NCBI GenBank assembly: GCA_020345745.1
Contig: CP070768.1
Location: forward strand, 3,287,900-3,328,980
Source: Desulfobacterales bacterium
GTDB lineage: Bacteria > Desulfobacterota > Desulfobacteria > Desulfobacterales > UBA11574
DNA length: 41,081 nucleotides
Reading direction: 5' to 3'
This document shows positions 1,731 through 21,460 of this stretch, one piece after another. Within the stretch, counting starts at the first letter, position 1. The number at the start of each line of letters is the position of its first letter. The position numbers were made by a program, and so were the translations under genes. The notes beneath the pieces were generated by a model. It was not told where the DNA came from, ran no database searches, and was given only the letters and a program-made list of their open reading frames with translations.

Positions 1731-2894
1731 CTATCTATCGGCCTTTCGGATCCCTATCTGATCTTGAGCGATAATCCACTTGCAGATATTCGCCGATCCC
1801 TCCACCATGGTATACGTCGGCGTGTCTCGATAGAATCGGGCCACCGGATATTCAGTTGAATATCCATATGCACCCAAAATCCGCATGGCAAAGTTGGCAC
1901 ATTTCGTGACCACTTCACCGGCAAAATATTTGGCCTGGGCAACACGGAGGCCATTGTTCAGATTCCCCTGATCCTTTTCCCATGCCGCCTTGTAAACCAG
2001 GAGGCGGGCAGCCTCAATTTCGGTGGACATCTGGGCAACCATATCCTGATTCATCTGAAACGTGCCGATGGGCTTGCCGAATTGTTTGCGTTCATTACAA
2101 TACTTGAGTGACACATCAAGGCATGCCTGGGCAACACCCACAGCACCGGCAGCCGCGGAAAGGCGTGTCTGATTGAGAGAACCGAAAAGAATCCTTGTGC
2201 CGTCGCCTGGATTGCCGATAATATTTTCTTTGGGAACTTGGGTATTATTCAAGAATATTTCACCGGTGGGAGAGGAGTGCGATCCCATTTTCTCCAGGGC
2301 AGACGTCTTAACACCGTTAAAGTTTTTTGGTTCTATCACAAAGGCTGATAGACCCTTTGAGCCCTTATCTTTGTCTGTATAAGCATAATAAATAATCACA
2401 TCAGCCACATCAGCATTGGAGATCCAGGTCTTGGAGCCGTTTAAGAGCCAGTGACCTCCCATATCTTCTGCTGTCGATGACATGGCCATAACATCGGAGC
2501 CGGCATCGGGTTCCGTAATAGCAAATCCTCCGAGATATTCGGCTGTGATCAGTTTGGAAATATACTTTTTCTTTAAGTCTTCACTGCCATACTTGTATAT
2601 GGTGTAAGCACTTCCTAGAAGCTGCATGTTGACCTGAACCCTCAGCGAGCTGGAGGCTTTTGCAATTTCTTCTGTCACAATCATTGCCGCCAACCAGCCC
2701 ATGTCCTCTCCGTCGTATTCTTCAGGGATAACCGTTCCAAAAAAACCCAGCTCTCCCATGGGCCTGATGGCTTCCTTGTACGGTAAATAATGGTTTGCAT
2801 CCCATTCATCGGCATTGGGGGCAATCTTCTTGGTTGCAAACTCGCGAACCGCTTTTCTCAGCATCTCAAGTTCTTTGGATAAAGCAAAATCCAT
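1731..2894 (-). CDS. Glutaryl-CoA dehydrogenase, non-decarboxylating type
   Basis: This 387-residue flavoprotein has the full acyl-CoA dehydrogenase fold: the helical N-domain (MGELGFFGTVIPEEYDGE), the FAD/substrate motif GGFAITEPDAGSDV near residues 122-135, WISNADVADV, and the C-terminal ERKQFGKPIG and RILGAYGYSTEYPVARFYRD motifs. It closely resembles, from memory, the Desulfococcus multivorans glutaryl-CoA dehydrogenase, which oxidises glutaryl-CoA to glutaconyl-CoA without losing CO2. The catalytic base is E365 in M-V-E-G-S-A. The preceding residue is Val, where decarboxylating enzymes have Tyr (YEGT), a change tied to loss of decarboxylation. It probably passes electrons to an electron-transfer flavoprotein. 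It lies 66 bp downstream of the CoA-transferase on the same strand, with an AGGAG-type site before the ATG. Another short-chain acyl-CoA is possible. Confidence 0.85.
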   Translation of the reverse strand: MDFALSKELEMLRKAVREFATKKIAPNADEWDANHYLPYKEAIRPMGELGFFGTVIPEEYDGEDMGWLAAMIVTEEIAKASSSLRVQVNMQLLGSAYTIYKYGSEDLKKKYISKLITAEYLGGFAITEPDAGSDVMAMSSTAEDMGGHWLLNGSKTWISNADVADVIIYYAYTDKDKGSKGLSAFVIEPKNFNGVKTSALEKMGSHSSPTGEIFLNNTQVPKENIIGNPGDGTRILFGSLNQTRLSAAAGAVGVAQACLDVSLKYCNERKQFGKPIGTFQMNQDMVAQMSTEIEAARLLVYKAAWEKDQGNLNNGLRVAQAKYFAGEVVTKCANFAMRILGAYGYSTEYPVARFYRDTPTYTMVEGSANICKWIIAQDQIGIRKADR

Positions 2895-2960
2895 AATTAC
2901 TCCTCCTAATTAAAGGTATTTAAGTTTTGTGGGCATAAAATAACCTTTAGATCAAATGTT

Positions 2961-4163
2961 TTAAATGACCCCGTTTTGACGGAGTTCTTCTATTTTTTTT
3001 GAATTATAGCCAAACGTTTCCTTCAATATTTCATCGGTATGTTCTCCTAAAAGAGGCGGGTGCCTGGTGATTTCGCAGGGGGTTTCGTATAGTTTCATAG
3101 GACTTGGGACCATCTTTACGGTTTTTGCCGTGGGATGAGGCACTTCGGCCACCATGTCTCTTGCCAAAACTTGGGGATCTGAAAAGACCTTATCCAGCGT
3201 ATTAATCGGGCCACAGGGTATTTGTAAGCTATCCAACTCCCTGAGCCATTCTGCACCCGGTCGATTCAGCATAATATCTGCTATAATTGGAATTAATGCT
3301 TTGCGGTTGCGAACCCGCTGGGGGTTTGTGGCAAAACGAGGATCTGAGGCCAAAGCATCCATACCCGCAAAAGCGCAGAATTTTTGCCATTGCTTATCAT
3401 TACCCACGGCAAGGATTATATATGTTCCATCCTTGGTATTGAAGGGTTCATAGGGTACAATATTCGGATGGCCATTACCGTACCGTATGGGTATTTCATC
3501 GGAGATAAGGTAATTACTTCCGACATTTGCCAACCACGCTATCATGGAATCCAGAAGCGATATATCAATGTATTGTCCTCTTTTTGTTTTTTCTCGATGT
3601 CTTAACGCCGCCAAAATGGAACTGCAGGCAAAAAGGCCTGCCGTAATGTCCACGATCGCTACGCCCACCTTCATGGGCGGGCCGTCTGGATCACCGGTGA
3701 AACTCATAATCCCGCCCATGCCTTGAATCATAAAGTCATATCCTGGTTTGTCTTTGTAGGGTCCGTTTTGACCAAATCCGGTGATGGAGCAATAGATCAG
3801 ACCGGGGTTATTTTTCTCAAGATCCTCGTAGCCAAGCCCCATCTTTTGTAAGGTTCCCACCTTGTAATTTTCAATTACAACATCACTTTTTTTTGCCAGT
3901 TGCCGGATAATCTCCTGGCCTTCCGGAACCTTTAGATTTACCGTTAAACCGCGTTTATTTCGGTTCACACAAAGATAGTAGGCCGCTTCACCACCTGCAT
4001 CCGGTGGACCCCATTGTCGCGTTTCATCTCCGATCCCGGGCCGTTCGACCTTAATGACTTCTGCGCCAAGATCACCAAGCATCATGGTACAATAGGGTCC
4101 TGCCAAAACCCGTGAAAGGTCAAGCACCGTTACATCACTAAGGGGTTTCAGGTTTGATATCAT
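2961..4163 (-). CDS. Family III (CaiB/BaiF) CoA-transferase, succinyl-CoA:glutarate type likely
   Basis: I place the start at the ATG at 4163 because AAAGGAG stands 7 bases before it and the family N-terminus (LSDVTVLDLSRVLAGPYCTMMLGDLGAEVIKVE) follows at once; an upstream frame to 4247 lacks this. The 400-residue product has CaiB/BaiF hallmarks: the GPYxxxxLGDLGAEVIKVE nucleotide-binding segment, NRNKRG, and GYDFMIQ near residues 141-147, whose Asp143 should be the acyl-anhydride-forming nucleophile. It moves CoA between organic acids by an ordered mechanism. Family III includes the human succinyl-CoA:glutarate transferase SUGCT. Being beside a glutaryl-CoA dehydrogenase makes glutarate activation the best guess, but sequence alone does not fix the acid. 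Confidence 0.8.
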   Translation of the reverse strand: MISNLKPLSDVTVLDLSRVLAGPYCTMMLGDLGAEVIKVERPGIGDETRQWGPPDAGGEAAYYLCVNRNKRGLTVNLKVPEGQEIIRQLAKKSDVVIENYKVGTLQKMGLGYEDLEKNNPGLIYCSITGFGQNGPYKDKPGYDFMIQGMGGIMSFTGDPDGPPMKVGVAIVDITAGLFACSSILAALRHREKTKRGQYIDISLLDSMIAWLANVGSNYLISDEIPIRYGNGHPNIVPYEPFNTKDGTYIILAVGNDKQWQKFCAFAGMDALASDPRFATNPQRVRNRKALIPIIADIMLNRPGAEWLRELDSLQIPCGPINTLDKVFSDPQVLARDMVAEVPHPTAKTVKMVPSPMKLYETPCEITRHPPLLGEHTDEILKETFGYNSKKIEELRQNGVI

Positions 4164-4270
4164 ATTTTCGTCTCCTTTATCGAATGATGTTCCGATTGAA
4201 TCAATATTCTGGACTACGGTTTTGAAAGTTTGTGGCATATTCAACACTTTTTTTCAAACGCAATTTTCGC

Positions 4271-4307
4271 ATCAAGTTTTCTTTTTCTCGGGAAGAAAAA
4301 CCTTGAT
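4271..4307. promoter_or_regulatory. Imperfect palindrome overlapping the -35, possible operator
   Basis: ATCAAG (4271-4276) and CTTGAT (4302-4307) form the outer arms, with TTTTTCT and AGAAAAA inside. The right arm overlaps the -35 hexamer of the plus-strand operon, and the palindrome sits between the two divergent operons. This is the position expected for a shared repressor or activator site. No regulator gene is nearby apart from the ECF sigma factor. Confidence 0.4.
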
Positions 4308-4330
4308 TCTGGAATAAAGTCTGCTATATA
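4303..4330 (+). promoter_or_regulatory. Predicted sigma-70 promoter of the TRAP-TAXI operon
   Basis: TTGATT at 4303-4308, a 16-base spacer, and TATATA at 4325-4330. Transcription would start near 4337, leaving a leader of about 100 bases before the lipoprotein gene. Confidence 0.5.
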
Positions 4331-4355
4331 TACTCAATAAAAATCCATAAATGAT

Positions 4356-4415
4356 ATTTCAAAACCCGTTACTTCAAACCGACTGACTTCAAACCGACCA
4401 ACCGCAAACCTAATA
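4356..4415 (+). repeat. Four tandem 15-bp imperfect repeats in the operon leader
   Basis: Units at 4356, 4371, 4386 and 4401 follow a 15-base period. The two central ones share ACTTCAAACCGAC exactly; the outer two are ATTTCAAAACCCGTT and ACCGCAAACCTAATA. The array ends just before the Shine-Dalgarno AAAGGAGGG of the lipoprotein gene. It may bind a regulator or be a slippage product. Confidence 0.65.
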
Positions 4416-4433
4416 ACTATAAAGGAGGGATTT

Positions 4434-4862
4434 ATGAATCGATTGATAGGAGTATCGACCTGGTTGTTGGTAATCTCTGCAGCAGCATTGCTGGTAATTG
4501 CGGGCTGCGGGGGTGCAAAGCCCAAACCTGGCGAGGTCTTTCCTTGTGTCGCCGACGGCAAGCTCGATAAGACCATAGCTCCTGAAGCCTCGCTGGAAGA
4601 CTTCTCCTGCGTCTATAAAACTTGGAAAGGTAGCGAAACATTGCATTTTAATGTGGCTGTCAAAAACATTAGCAGTACAGATCAGCGTTTCAGGGTCAAT
4701 ATCTTTTTAGATAACGGTAAAGGCGTCGGCGGGCTCATTCCAAGAAAGACCAAAAAAGGTCTGGTAAAGCCCGGCCAGATAGCAAAATTTACCTATCCGG
4801 TAAAGGGCATGGACAAAAACCCCAAAGGAGTAATACTCATCATAAAAACCATGGCAAAATAG
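4434..4862 (+). CDS. Small lipoprotein of unknown function, first gene of TRAP-TAXI operon
   Basis: The 142-residue product begins with a signal sequence and lipobox V-I-A-G-C, with the acylated Cys at 25, so it should be anchored to a membrane facing the periplasm. The mature part has a short cysteine-containing stretch (FPCVADGKLD, DFSCVYKTW) and then a beta-rich region, LHFNVAVKNISSTDQRFRVNIFLDNGKGVGG, resembling an immunoglobulin-like fold in pattern only. I do not recognise the family. A strong AAAGGAGGG site precedes the ATG. It is 32 bp upstream of the TAXI binding protein and probably co-transcribed with it, so it may help ligand capture or anchor the binding protein. That role is inference. 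Confidence 0.75.
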   Translation: MNRLIGVSTWLLVISAAALLVIAGCGGAKPKPGEVFPCVADGKLDKTIAPEASLEDFSCVYKTWKGSETLHFNVAVKNISSTDQRFRVNIFLDNGKGVGGLIPRKTKKGLVKPGQIAKFTYPVKGMDKNPKGVILIIKTMAK

Positions 4863-4894
4863 AATTGATCAAGCTTAATAAGGAGGTTGCTAAT

Positions 4895-5860
4895 ATGAAA
4901 AGAGTGAGCATTATATTGTCTCTATGTGTCGTTCTGGCCTTAGCAGGACCGGCGGCTGCTAAAATAACGTTTGTCAGTATCGGAACCGGCGGGACCGGCG
5001 GCATTTACTATCCATACGGCGGTGGTGTGGCAGAGATCTGGTCCAAGTACGTAAAAGGCGTAAAGGCGGTTGCAGAAGTTACCGGGGCAAGCGTGGAAAA
5101 TGTCAAGCTGGCCCATAAGGGAGAAACCGTCATCGGTGAAGTCATGGGGGATGTGGCCGTAGCCGGATACAACGGACTTTCCAAGTTCAAGGGAAAAAAG
5201 CACAACATCCTGTCCATGGCCATTATGTACCCAAATTTGCTGCAAATTGTCGCACTGAAAAAGAGCGGCATCACCAACATCGAGCAGGTAACGGGCAAAA
5301 ATATCAGCACCGGCAGTCCCGGCAGTGGGACCAACTTCATGGCCGAAGTTGTTTTAAAAGCTCTTGGTATTCCTCTGGATTCTTTTAAAGACAGCAGACT
5401 TTCCTTTACCGAAAGTGCAAACGCTTTAAAAGACGGTACCATAGACATCGGCACATGGTCGGTTGGGCCCGGCACCAGCTCTATTCTGGACCTGGCCACC
5501 ACCCATGATATCAACATTATATCATTCACCCCGGACCAAACCAAAAAAATCCTGGAAGCAAACAAGACGTACTCGTCGGTAGATTTGGCAGGCGGTGTGT
5601 ACCGTGGCGTTGACAAAGCCGTACCCACCATCGGTGTTTGGAACGTGATGATCTGTCAAAAATCTTTGGATGCGGACCTGGTTTATAAATTGGTCAAGGC
5701 GCTTTATGAGCATAACGACTACTTGCGCAAGATTCATCCCTCGGCCGCTTACACAACACCTGAAAACGCCGTGAAGTATTCTCCGATTCCGTTACATCCT
5801 GGAACGATTAAGTATCTGAAGGAAAAGGGAATAACCGTTCCCGCAAAACTGGTGCCGTAA
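4895..5860 (+). CDS. TAXI-family TRAP transporter substrate-binding protein
   Basis: The start is the ATG at 4895, which follows AAGGAGG by 8 bases and opens a signal peptide (MKRVSIILSLCVVLALAGPAAA). An upstream TTG in frame lacks these. The mature protein begins with the TAXI signature TFVSIGTGGTGGIYYPYGGGVAEIW and contains ISTGSPGSGTNFMAEVVLKALGI, both typical of TRAP transporter solute receptors of the TAXI class. It binds an organic anion in the periplasm and hands it to the fused permease encoded two genes downstream. Known TAXI ligands include glutamate and 2-oxoglutarate-like compounds. The divergent glutaryl-CoA pathway genes suggest a C5 dicarboxylate here, which is an inference. 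Confidence 0.92.
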   Translation: MKRVSIILSLCVVLALAGPAAAKITFVSIGTGGTGGIYYPYGGGVAEIWSKYVKGVKAVAEVTGASVENVKLAHKGETVIGEVMGDVAVAGYNGLSKFKGKKHNILSMAIMYPNLLQIVALKKSGITNIEQVTGKNISTGSPGSGTNFMAEVVLKALGIPLDSFKDSRLSFTESANALKDGTIDIGTWSVGPGTSSILDLATTHDINIISFTPDQTKKILEANKTYSSVDLAGGVYRGVDKAVPTIGVWNVMICQKSLDADLVYKLVKALYEHNDYLRKIHPSAAYTTPENAVKYSPIPLHPGTIKYLKEKGITVPAKLVP

Positions 5861-5870
5861 AGGTGCAATA

Positions 5871-6404
5871 TTGACCAGGTCGCACAGACGCATCGGCTTT
5901 TTTTTTGTCGGCCTGGTCTTTTTATTGCTTTTGGTTGCTTACCTTGTGCCGGCAGGTTTAGCGTTGCAAGTTACGCTTGTAGACAGCGGCAAGCCATTGT
6001 TGGTTTTGCCTCTTAAACCAGGGGAACGTTTTACCCTGCACTACTATCACTCAGTAGAAAACGCACCCATTTGGGAAGTCCACAGTGTGGATAAAGAGGG
6101 GCGTATCTATATCGAAGAAGAGCGTTATTTAAAATTTGGGGCCGGCATGGGACGGATGCCTGGTGTGGGACGGATGGTACAACGGGGTCCATATGAGGTG
6201 ATTGAAAATATGCATTTGCCCACCGGCAATTTCATCCTTAGAGTCGGAAGCCCGGGTGTGGATCATACTATCATATGGCGAGGTGTAAAGAAAAACCTCT
6301 CCCATTTGGTTCCCCATAAAGCTGTGCAGTTCTCTGCAAAACCTGTGAGCTTACTTTACAGAATGTGGCAGTATATAATACCCCGTCGCGTTATTCCGGG
6401 CTAA
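5871..6404 (+). CDS. DUF1850 domain protein
   Basis: The 177-residue protein starts with TTG at 5871, preceded by AAAGG seven bases upstream. It has one N-terminal membrane segment (FFFVGLVFLLLLVAYLVPAGLALQV), followed by a beta-rich domain with PGERFTLHYYHSVENAPIWEVHSV, the recognisable DUF1850 core. DUF1850 proteins are commonly encoded between a TAXI binding protein and its fused permease, as here (10 bp after one, 114 bp before the other). Their function is not established. A periplasm-facing accessory role in TAXI transport is the usual suggestion. Three tandem-like GxGRM units (GAGMGRMPGVGRMVQRGPYE) lie in the middle. Confidence 0.85.
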   Translation: MTRSHRRIGFFFVGLVFLLLLVAYLVPAGLALQVTLVDSGKPLLVLPLKPGERFTLHYYHSVENAPIWEVHSVDKEGRIYIEEERYLKFGAGMGRMPGVGRMVQRGPYEVIENMHLPTGNFILRVGSPGVDHTIIWRGVKKNLSHLVPHKAVQFSAKPVSLLYRMWQYIIPRRVIPG

Positions 6405-6518
6405 CCTTGAATCTAAATTGTTTTATATCAATAAGCATTGCCGATATTTTTCAAAGATTATTCATTTCATCATATGAATCCAATTGTTTACGGAACAATA
6501 AGTGATTAAGGTTCGCTA

Positions 6519-8534
6519 ATGCCTGAAAACCAAACCGATAAAGCCAAACTTCCTTCCGCAAACAGCAAAATATCGGCTGATCGCAGCCAGGTGCTGGTTG
6601 ATATAACGGCTCGGATTGTGCTGGTAATAGCTGTCAGCTTAAGTCTTTATCAATTATATACGGCCGGTATCGCGGCACTTACCGCGCTGGTGCAGCGCTC
6701 CATCCATTTGGGTGCCATTCTTTGCCTGACATTTTTACTCAAGCCGGCTTTTAAAACCGCCCGCAAAGATAGGCTCTCTTTTTGGTTTTTACTCGACTGG
6801 ATCCTGGTTCTGGCATCGGTATATTGCACCTTCTACATCTGCTATAATCTTACGGCAATATTTGAGCGTCAGGGGGACTGGCTGACTAGTGATCTGGTGG
6901 TTAGCATCATCGGTACCCTTCTGGTGCTGGAGGCCTGCCGACGGGTGATCGGCTTTATCATGACCGGCATATGTTTAGTCGGCATCTTATATGCCATGTA
7001 CGGGCCTTACATGCCGGAGCTGATCATTCACAAAGGCTACAGCATCGAGCGCATTGCCACCACCCTATGGCTCACCACAGAAGGGATTTTCGGCTTGCCC
7101 ATTGGTGTAGCCGCCACCTTTGTTTTTGTATTTGTACTCTTTGGCGCCATCCTGGAGACCACCGGCGCAGGAGCCTTTTTCATCGATTTTGCCTATGCTC
7201 TCACCGGCCGCTTTTCAGGCGGCCCGGCCAAGACCTCCGTCGTCGCTTCGGGGTTTATGGGTTCCGTTTCCGGCTCAGCAGTGGGTAATGTGGTAGCCAC
7301 CGGTTCTTTTACCATTCCCATGATGAAAAAAGTCGGGTACAGGGCACATGTTGCGGGAGCTATCGAAGCAGCGGCATCAACCGGTGGTCAACTGATGCCG
7401 CCTATCATGGGTGCTGGTGCATTTTTAATGGCCGAGTTCACCAATACGAGCTACCTTACCATCATAAAAACAGCCCTGGTACCGGCGATCATGTATTACA
7501 TCACGGTTTTGATATTCGTACTCTATGAAGCTCAAAAATTTGGGCTGAAGGGGCAACCCAAAGAGAGTCTGCCTCGGGTCATGAACGTCATCAAAGAAGG
7601 ACTACACTTTATTATTCCTGTATTGATACTGATTTATGTGCTGGTTGCAAACTTCTCACCCATGATGGCCGGATTTGTTGCTGTAGTGAGCACTCTGGCC
7701 ATCAGCCTGCTTGCAAATAGTTTGAGATGGGCGGTGCAAACCACTCGCCTGGAAAGGGATGATCCACAGCGCATAAGCCTAGGCAGGTTCGGTCTTAACG
7801 AATTCGTATTATTCATCAAAGCCCTTGAAAATGGAGCAAAAAACGCCATCATGGTCTCTGTGGCCTGTGCCGCAGCAGGGATCATCGTAGGTATGGTGAC
7901 CCTCACCGGTATGGGGCTTAAATTCTCTAGTCTGGTTTTGGATCTTAGTTTTGGAATTAAAGCCCTTGCTATTCTTTTGATTGGTGCTGCATCGCTGGTA
8001 CTCGGCATGGGGCTTCCGGTGACTGCCAGCTATATCGTACTGGCAACCCTGGCCGGTCCCGCACTGTTGGATATGGGCGTGCCCATAATGGTTGCCCACA
8101 TGATCGTCTTTTGGTATTCGCAGGATGCCAACGTAACCCCTCCGGTGAGTCTGGCAAGCTTTGCAGGCGCAGGGGTTGCAGGGGCCAACCCCATGAGAAC
8201 CGCATTCACTTCCTGGAAGCTTGCCAAGGGCCTTTATATCATTCCCATTATAATGGCCTACCGGCCGCTTTTAGGTATTGGTAAAGATTATGATTTGCTG
8301 CACTGGGAGGTGGGGCTGACCATGCTTGCGACGACGTTGGGTCTGGTAGCCTTTGCCAGTGCACTGGAACGCTTCTTTCTCCATCGGACCAAATGGCCGG
8401 AAACGATTCTATTTTGGTTGGCTGCTGCGGGGCTCTTTTGGCCGGAATACTGGGCTGATCTGGCCGGCTTCATTGCCCTTGTTGGCGCTGTTTTGATGCA
8501 AATATTTCACCGGTCTCAAAAGAAGGCTGAATAA
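6519..8534 (+). CDS. TRAP transporter fused permease (4TM/12TM, TAXI class)
   Basis: This 671-residue membrane protein joins the small DctQ-like unit (about residues 25-150) to the large DctM-like unit. Typical motifs are FGAILETTGAGAFFIDFAYALTGRFSGGPAKTSVVASGFMGSVSGSAVGNVVATGSFTIPMMKKVGY, spanning roughly residues 208-275; EAAASTGGQLMPPIMGAGAFLMAE; and the second half VLGMGLPVTASYIVLATL with DANVTPPVSLASFAGAGVAGANP. It uses a sodium or proton gradient to import the ligand delivered by the TAXI binding protein. The ATG follows AAGG by 8 bases. The last about 80 residues add two further hydrophobic segments. It is followed by a convergent glycosyltransferase gene. Confidence 0.95.
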   Translation: MPENQTDKAKLPSANSKISADRSQVLVDITARIVLVIAVSLSLYQLYTAGIAALTALVQRSIHLGAILCLTFLLKPAFKTARKDRLSFWFLLDWILVLASVYCTFYICYNLTAIFERQGDWLTSDLVVSIIGTLLVLEACRRVIGFIMTGICLVGILYAMYGPYMPELIIHKGYSIERIATTLWLTTEGIFGLPIGVAATFVFVFVLFGAILETTGAGAFFIDFAYALTGRFSGGPAKTSVVASGFMGSVSGSAVGNVVATGSFTIPMMKKVGYRAHVAGAIEAAASTGGQLMPPIMGAGAFLMAEFTNTSYLTIIKTALVPAIMYYITVLIFVLYEAQKFGLKGQPKESLPRVMNVIKEGLHFIIPVLILIYVLVANFSPMMAGFVAVVSTLAISLLANSLRWAVQTTRLERDDPQRISLGRFGLNEFVLFIKALENGAKNAIMVSVACAAAGIIVGMVTLTGMGLKFSSLVLDLSFGIKALAILLIGAASLVLGMGLPVTASYIVLATLAGPALLDMGVPIMVAHMIVFWYSQDANVTPPVSLASFAGAGVAGANPMRTAFTSWKLAKGLYIIPIIMAYRPLLGIGKDYDLLHWEVGLTMLATTLGLVAFASALERFFLHRTKWPETILFWLAAAGLFWPEYWADLAGFIALVGAVLMQIFHRSQKKAE

Positions 8535-8583: not shown

Positions 8584-8607
8584 CGGCTGGATAATATTTT
8601 TTTAAAG
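8584..8607 (-). repeat. Solo terminal repeat of element family 1
   Basis: CGGCTGGATAATATTTTT followed by TTAAAGG matches the left end of the full elements at 1468 and 21180, but no body or right end follows. The TAA stop of the glycosyltransferase (bases 8602-8604 on the minus strand) lies inside it. It looks like a remnant that now supplies the gene end. Confidence 0.7.
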
Positions 8608-21129: not shown

Positions 21130-21460
21130 TCAACTCATGTTTCACACTCTGAACGCTAACCATAGACGGGACAACGACAAGGCTGGATCATGTTTTTTTA
21201 AAGGCAAAATATTACCGGACTCAGTGTAAAAATTGAAACTGTGCAATTTATGTGAACCAGGCGCAATGGTACAGCTTATCGAATGCATTTCAAGCACTTA
21301 TTAATAAAAAACTCTTTTGATATGTACGCGCCGTTGCTAGTGCGAATACGTTTTAGCTAAATTTTGACTTTCAAAAAATATTATCCAGCCGCTATGTGGC
21401 TTGGTTTTCGATCAAGAATAGGGTGCAAAACTTAAATTTTAAGTTATCCATCGAAAAAAG
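21130..21460. other. 331-bp tolA-tolB spacer
   Basis: No gene here. It is mostly the family 1 element at 21180-21391, with about 50 bp before it and 69 bp after. A purine-rich GAAAAAAG precedes the tolB ATG. Confidence 0.6.
21180..21391. repeat. Inverted-repeat element family 1, copy 2 (MITE-like)
   Basis: The 212-bp copy matches the element at 1468-1680 along its length. The right end is ATATTATCCAGCCG; the left end (GGCTGGATCATGTTTTTTT) has drifted. The internal block with GTACGCGCCGTTGCTAGTGC is unchanged. It is inserted between tolA and tolB in the same relative orientation as copy 1. Confidence 0.85.

Follow-up and report, generated by a model that had tools for sequence, protein, structure and literature searches.

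A putative module for the import and CoA activation of a C5 dicarboxylate, probably glutarate, with a Desulfococcus-type glutaryl-CoA dehydrogenase

The non-decarboxylating glutaryl-CoA dehydrogenase of Desulfococcus multivorans (GDH-Des; structures 3mpi and 3mpj, family model NF045552) is the reference for an enzyme type that is usually treated within the degradation of benzoyl-CoA (PMC6129605, PMC5852087) and is often encoded next to gcdA. Coenzyme A is transferred to C5 dicarboxylates by unrelated enzymes, exemplified by human SUGCT (C7orf10; 9br6), a succinyl-CoA:glutarate CoA-transferase, and by the family I glutaconate CoA-transferase GctAB of Acidaminococcus (1poi). Very few TAXI-type TRAP transporters have a known ligand. 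In the solute-binding protein VcGluP (8s4j) three residues, Y45, Q93 and E125, contact the amino group of glutamate, and Q93 and Y45 matter most among them; a TAXI transporter of Proteus mirabilis imports 2-oxoglutarate (PMC11574862). TtGluBP (1us4/1us5) is another glutamate-binding TAXI protein. A literature search joining glutarate, CoA-transferase and TRAP transporter found nothing, and one on glutarate and TAXI-type TRAP transporters gave a single hit.

The locus described here lies in a 41,081-nucleotide stretch of a Desulfobacterales genome, which is called the window below. Its six genes are arranged divergently: two enzyme genes on the minus strand, with the CoA-transferase first and the dehydrogenase after it, and a four-gene TAXI operon on the plus strand (4434-8534) encoding a lipoprotein, the solute-binding protein (SBP), a DUF1850 protein and a fused permease.

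1731..2894, minus strand: glutaryl-CoA dehydrogenase, assigned to the Desulfococcus type (NF045552, 778 bits; relative of 3mpi)
2961..4163, minus strand: family III (CaiB-type) CoA-transferase of SUGCT-like sequence, with glutaryl-CoA as its proposed product (PF02515; best PDB match 9br6)
4164..4433, no strand: divergent intergenic region of 270 bp, with an imperfect inverted repeat at 4271-4307
4434..4862, plus strand: predicted lipoprotein of 142 amino acids, predicted Ig-like beta sandwich, outside Pfam and NCBIfam families
4895..5860, plus strand: TAXI solute-binding protein (TIGR02122, 290 bits)
5871..6404, plus strand: DUF1850 membrane-anchored accessory protein (PF08905, 58 bits)
6519..8534, plus strand: fused TRAP (DctQM) permease (TIGR02123, 668 bits; PF06808)

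An earlier note on this DNA had described a TAXI operon facing away from the enzyme genes across 270 bp, and all these genes were found in their places; the 142-residue lipoprotein that leads the operon had not been named there. We consider it probable that the six genes form one module for importing and activating a C5 dicarboxylate, with glutarate as the likeliest candidate and glutaconate as a possible further one. The enzymes are of known kinds, and what would be new is the ligand that we infer for this TAXI clade, together with the signature of its binding pocket.

The dehydrogenase (387 amino acids) scored 778 bits against NF045552 (GlutCoADH_Des), for which the curated cut-off is 470, and it is the single copy above this cut-off in the genome. 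Its nearest solved relative, 3mpi/3mpj, aligns with it from end to end and is of nearly equal length. In the motif T362-M-V-E365-G-S a valine precedes the catalytic Glu365, as in GDH-Des; valine stands before the glutamate in 93 of the 93 motifs listed for relatives (MVEG or IVEG), and tyrosine occupies the same position (IYEG) in two further acyl-CoA dehydrogenases that this genome encodes. According to Wischgoll and colleagues (work of 2010), this Tyr-to-Val exchange reportedly distinguishes the non-decarboxylating from the decarboxylating type. Family score and valine uphold the previous assignment: judged from its sequence, the enzyme is of the non-decarboxylating Desulfococcus type, and glutaconyl-CoA is its putative product. 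Its neighbourhood departs from the usual one, as gcdA is missing from the window and a CoA-transferase and a transporter are present instead.

The CoA-transferase is the sole full-length match to PF02515 in the genome (465 bits, all 366 model positions covered). Its closest solved relative is human SUGCT (9br6; E 2e-118, 401 residues aligned), and its YIDISL segment aligns with SUGCT FIDCNL, which contains the catalytic aspartate; in family III CoA-transferases this residue is the nucleophile. The best NCBIfam model, NF052585 (succinate--glutarate CoA-transferase), gave 459 bits against a cut-off of 750, and for this reason we call the enzyme SUGCT-like and not a member of that group. The earlier placement in the family that includes SUGCT holds, and a SUGCT-like substrate is putative. 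The start codon is best placed at ATG 4163, corrected from GTG 4247, with the Shine-Dalgarno sequence AAAGGAG ahead of it; the gap to the TAXI operon is therefore 270 bp. A gene for an IclR-family regulator precedes the CoA-transferase gene in several relatives (L009, L248, L254, L258-L261) and is absent beside that of the window.

On the opposite strand, the SBP exceeded the TIGR02122 cut-off of 84 with 290 bits, as the only protein of the genome to do so, and the permease reached 668 bits against TIGR02123 (cut-off 321) and also matched PF06808, so that an SBP and a single fused permease, both above their cut-offs, place the transporter in the TAXI type of TRAP systems. The SBP start was corrected from TTG 4865 to ATG 4895, which has AAGGAGG ahead. 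The DUF1850 protein (58 bits against PF08905, cut-off 27) has a predicted structure of an N-terminal helix followed by a beta domain; its cluster occurs beside TAXI genes at 60 loci and is as conserved as the lipoprotein, and a literature search on DUF1850 found nothing. The lipoprotein, which had no match in Pfam or NCBIfam, is the first gene of the TAXI operon in most relatives (clusters of 38 and 12 loci), and its alignment contains eight invariant columns among 31 sequences. The AlphaFold model (pLDDT 86) is all-beta past the signal helix, and an Ig-like beta sandwich is predicted; neither this fold nor that of the DUF1850 protein matched a PDB entry at E<=0.001. In L206 and the f12 loci related to it, the TAXI operon is directly preceded by another TRAP operon, DctP-type in appearance (genes of 331, 164 and 438 amino acids).

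The window SBP belongs to the same TAXI family as VcGluP and TtGluBP (about 33% identity) and keeps Tyr45 and Ser75, but differs from them by Met for Q93, Asn for E125 and Trp for Y200, and by its link to CoA enzymes for C5 dicarboxylates. The Gln at 93 and Glu at 125 that mark glutamate-binding TAXI proteins are accordingly absent. In the binding-site columns the exchanges to Met and Asn occur in the window SBP and in 73 of 73 orthologs, all of which also retain Y45 and S75 and carry a tyrosine at position 123 and a tryptophan at position 200. Glutamate was rejected as the ligand since the known contacts to its amine are lost. Loss of the amine-holding side chains in all 73 orthologs points to a C5 dicarboxylate without an amine; it argues against an amino acid and does not single out glutarate, given that 2-oxoglutarate and 2-oxoadipate likewise have no amine. 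Glutarate or glutaconate is our best guess for the ligand of this clade. More distant TAXI proteins at dehydrogenase loci carry Leu-Tyr-Asn-Trp-Ser, that is, Leu at 93 and Asn at 125, and those encoded away from this dehydrogenase (L257, L262, L263) differ at 125 and 201. In the tree the divergent proteins sit on long branches at a great distance from the clade of the window, a position that fits either common descent or convergence of the signature.

The linkage of these genes was followed in 80 loci of the dehydrogenase and in 80 stretches around orthologs of the TAXI protein or of the CoA-transferase. A CoA-transferase was present in 10 of the 80 dehydrogenase loci and the TAXI in 5 (L029, L031, L032, L051 and L056), all of which are among these 10 (p ~1e-5, kinship ignored). 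L029 has the gene arrangement of the window, L031 combines the same CoA-transferase with a TAXI that is only 35% identical, and L051 and L056 combine a close TAXI with the family I GctAB. Seen from the transporter, 28 of 70 TAXI-ortholog loci contain a CoA-transferase (GctAB in 25, the family III enzyme in 3), 7 the dehydrogenase and 5 GcdA. Since the best solved relative of GctA is the Acidaminococcus enzyme 1poi, two unrelated C5-dicarboxylate CoA-transferases adjoin one transporter: in 25 loci the same TAXI operon is accompanied not by the family III enzyme but by relatives of the family I enzyme, which is itself absent from the window. The transporter is replaced as well, for a divergent TAXI (33-36% identical) accompanies the same CoA-transferase or GctAB together with the dehydrogenase in L031, L032, L260 and L261. 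Dehydrogenase and TAXI orthologs are linked in five families (f6, f17, f28, f31, f37) besides that of the window (f1).

Where at least 5 kb could be read on both sides, a CoA-transferase was found in 18 of 35 loci and the dehydrogenase in 5 of 35, against a chance rate of 0.55% (p ~1e-6), which is a rough figure set from about one dehydrogenase copy per genome. Against the module, about 60% of the TAXI loci lack a C5 enzyme within the stretch read, though many contigs are short, and in family f12, where GctAB lies beside TAXI in 15 of 22 loci, the stretch does not contain the dehydrogenase. Among 389 genomes of the class the dehydrogenase was found in 63 of the 80 with a TAXI ortholog versus 173 of the 309 without one (Fisher p 1e-4, kinship ignored). 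A search for conserved co-occurrence had been proposed as a check, and linkage that recurs in several families, through replacements of both the CoA-transferase and the TAXI, is not an accident of the window genome.

In the working that we propose, enzymes and transporter, presumably co-regulated, would act in sequence. The TAXI SBP would bind the acid in the periplasm as a free dianion, making no contact to an amine, and the fused permease, aided by the DUF1850 protein and the lipoprotein, would import it. The family III CoA-transferase would then charge the imported acid with CoA donated by succinyl-CoA or a different acyl-CoA, and the dehydrogenase would convert glutaryl-CoA to glutaconyl-CoA without decarboxylating it, with ETF receiving the electrons. 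In relatives a Na+-pumping decarboxylase of the GcdA type, whose gene adjoins that of the dehydrogenase, would take over from there; the GcdA subunit was not found here. Import, CoA activation and oxidation of a C5 dicarboxylate had been suggested before for this locus. The first two, together with dehydrogenation, are supported by the recurring linkage, the replacement of CoA-transferase and TAXI and the loss of the amine-binding residues; oxidation in this organism is weaker than claimed, because the absence of a glutaconyl-CoA decarboxylase, previously noted for the window, extends to a GcdA-type subunit in the whole genome.

The best matches to GcdA in this genome reach 23-24% identity, and the better of the two sits in a cluster resembling that of leucine breakdown. 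Within the same family, 12 of the 24 genomes encode GcdA at 74-78% identity, and it lies near the dehydrogenase in 47 of 80 loci. The window genome consists of one contig with an estimated completeness of 92%, which makes the absence likely without making it certain, and the pathway seems to break off after glutaconyl-CoA. The one gene for the beta subunit of a sodium-pump decarboxylase (OAD-beta) is present at G000:C1:2874507-2875565 (L265:8451-9581), beside a small oadG-like gene; its product is 50-52% identical to full-length GcdB-linked beta subunits, and no alpha subunit was found among the ORFs listed around it. Between the dehydrogenase and decarboxylase genes, L187, L197, L213, L247, L248 and other loci regularly encode a protein of about 145 amino acids that resembles carboxymuconolactone decarboxylase.

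The pocket and the linkage can also be read differently. The oxidation of 2-oxoadipate yields glutaryl-CoA, and the transporter might carry, in place of glutarate, a related C5-C6 dicarboxylate, for instance 2-oxoadipate or 2-oxoglutarate, that leads to the same CoA esters. Genes for a two-subunit 2-oxoacid:ferredoxin oxidoreductase are found repeatedly next to the dehydrogenase gene and at times next to the TAXI operon (L013, L189, L205, L219 and others): the pair adjoins the TAXI operon in L189, L205 and L219, its beta-subunit cluster occurs at 16 dehydrogenase loci, and perhaps it is a 2-oxoadipate oxidoreductase supplying glutaryl-CoA. These neighbours and the uptake of 2-oxoglutarate by the Proteus mirabilis TAXI (PMC11574862) favour a 2-oxo acid. 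Yet a 2-oxo acid oxidised straight to its CoA ester would need no CoA-transferase, and TAXI loci with a CoA-transferase number 28 against 3 with the oxidoreductase, so we regard such a ligand as unlikely. That the dehydrogenase serves the intracellular breakdown of benzoyl-CoA, lysine or tryptophan next to an unrelated TAXI operon seems to us distinctly improbable. This reading agrees with the usual discussion of the enzyme type in connection with benzoyl-CoA degradation (PMC6129605, PMC5852087) and with the 75 of 80 dehydrogenase loci that have no TAXI nearby; it is at odds with a linkage that several families share and that involves two divergent TAXIs as well as two CoA-transferases unrelated to each other, and a benzoyl-CoA role is made unlikely here by the lack of any Oah/BamA above the cut-off in this genome.

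A module running in reverse would reduce glutaconyl-CoA to glutaryl-CoA; the CoA-transferase would then free glutarate, to be taken back or exchanged by the transporter. The missing GcdA, which would otherwise draw glutaconyl-CoA forward, speaks for this reading, as does the fact that both acyl-CoA dehydrogenases and CoA-transferases can in principle work in either direction. But TRAP transporters that depend on a binding protein are importers, and those relatives that combine CoA-transferase, dehydrogenase and TAXI have an adjoining GcdA (L248, L260, L261); we give this direction very little credence. Uptake and activation of glutarate, the reading that we prefer, may extend beyond this locus. 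The suggestion that the clade is a glutarate/glutaconate-specific TRAP family, with a Met/Leu-Tyr-Asn-Trp-Ser signature common to divergent lineages and the Ig-like lipoprotein as an extra component, is tentative, and we hold it to be somewhat short of an even chance. The clade is present in about a fifth of the 389 class genomes searched, and the pocket signature with the repeated linkage to C5 CoA enzymes offers a specific ligand guess for a transporter common among relatives of sulfate reducers. If true, glutaryl-CoA metabolism in these anaerobes would extend from an internal step of aromatic and amino-acid breakdown to the uptake of dissolved glutarate.

The palindrome that the earlier note described as shared by the two divergent gene sets was rejected as an operator. 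The inverted repeat at 4271-4307 forms 12 of 15 pairs, and 7% of dinucleotide shuffles do as well or better. Its left arm has not been preserved in L185, the closest relative that shares the gene order. The repeat is neither significant nor conserved. Sigma-70 promoters in the intergenic region were no more numerous than in shuffled sequences, and no Rfam element was found in the window. A gene for an ECF-type sigma-70 factor adjoins the dehydrogenase gene. MITE-like elements, each about 210 bp long and alike over most of that length, occur at 1469-1679, just 3' of the dehydrogenase gene, and at 21181-21390 of the window, with a single end at 8585; their terminal inverted repeat, GGCTGGATAATATTTTT, has 60 copies in the genome (at most 1 mismatch) versus 0 for a reversed-pattern control.
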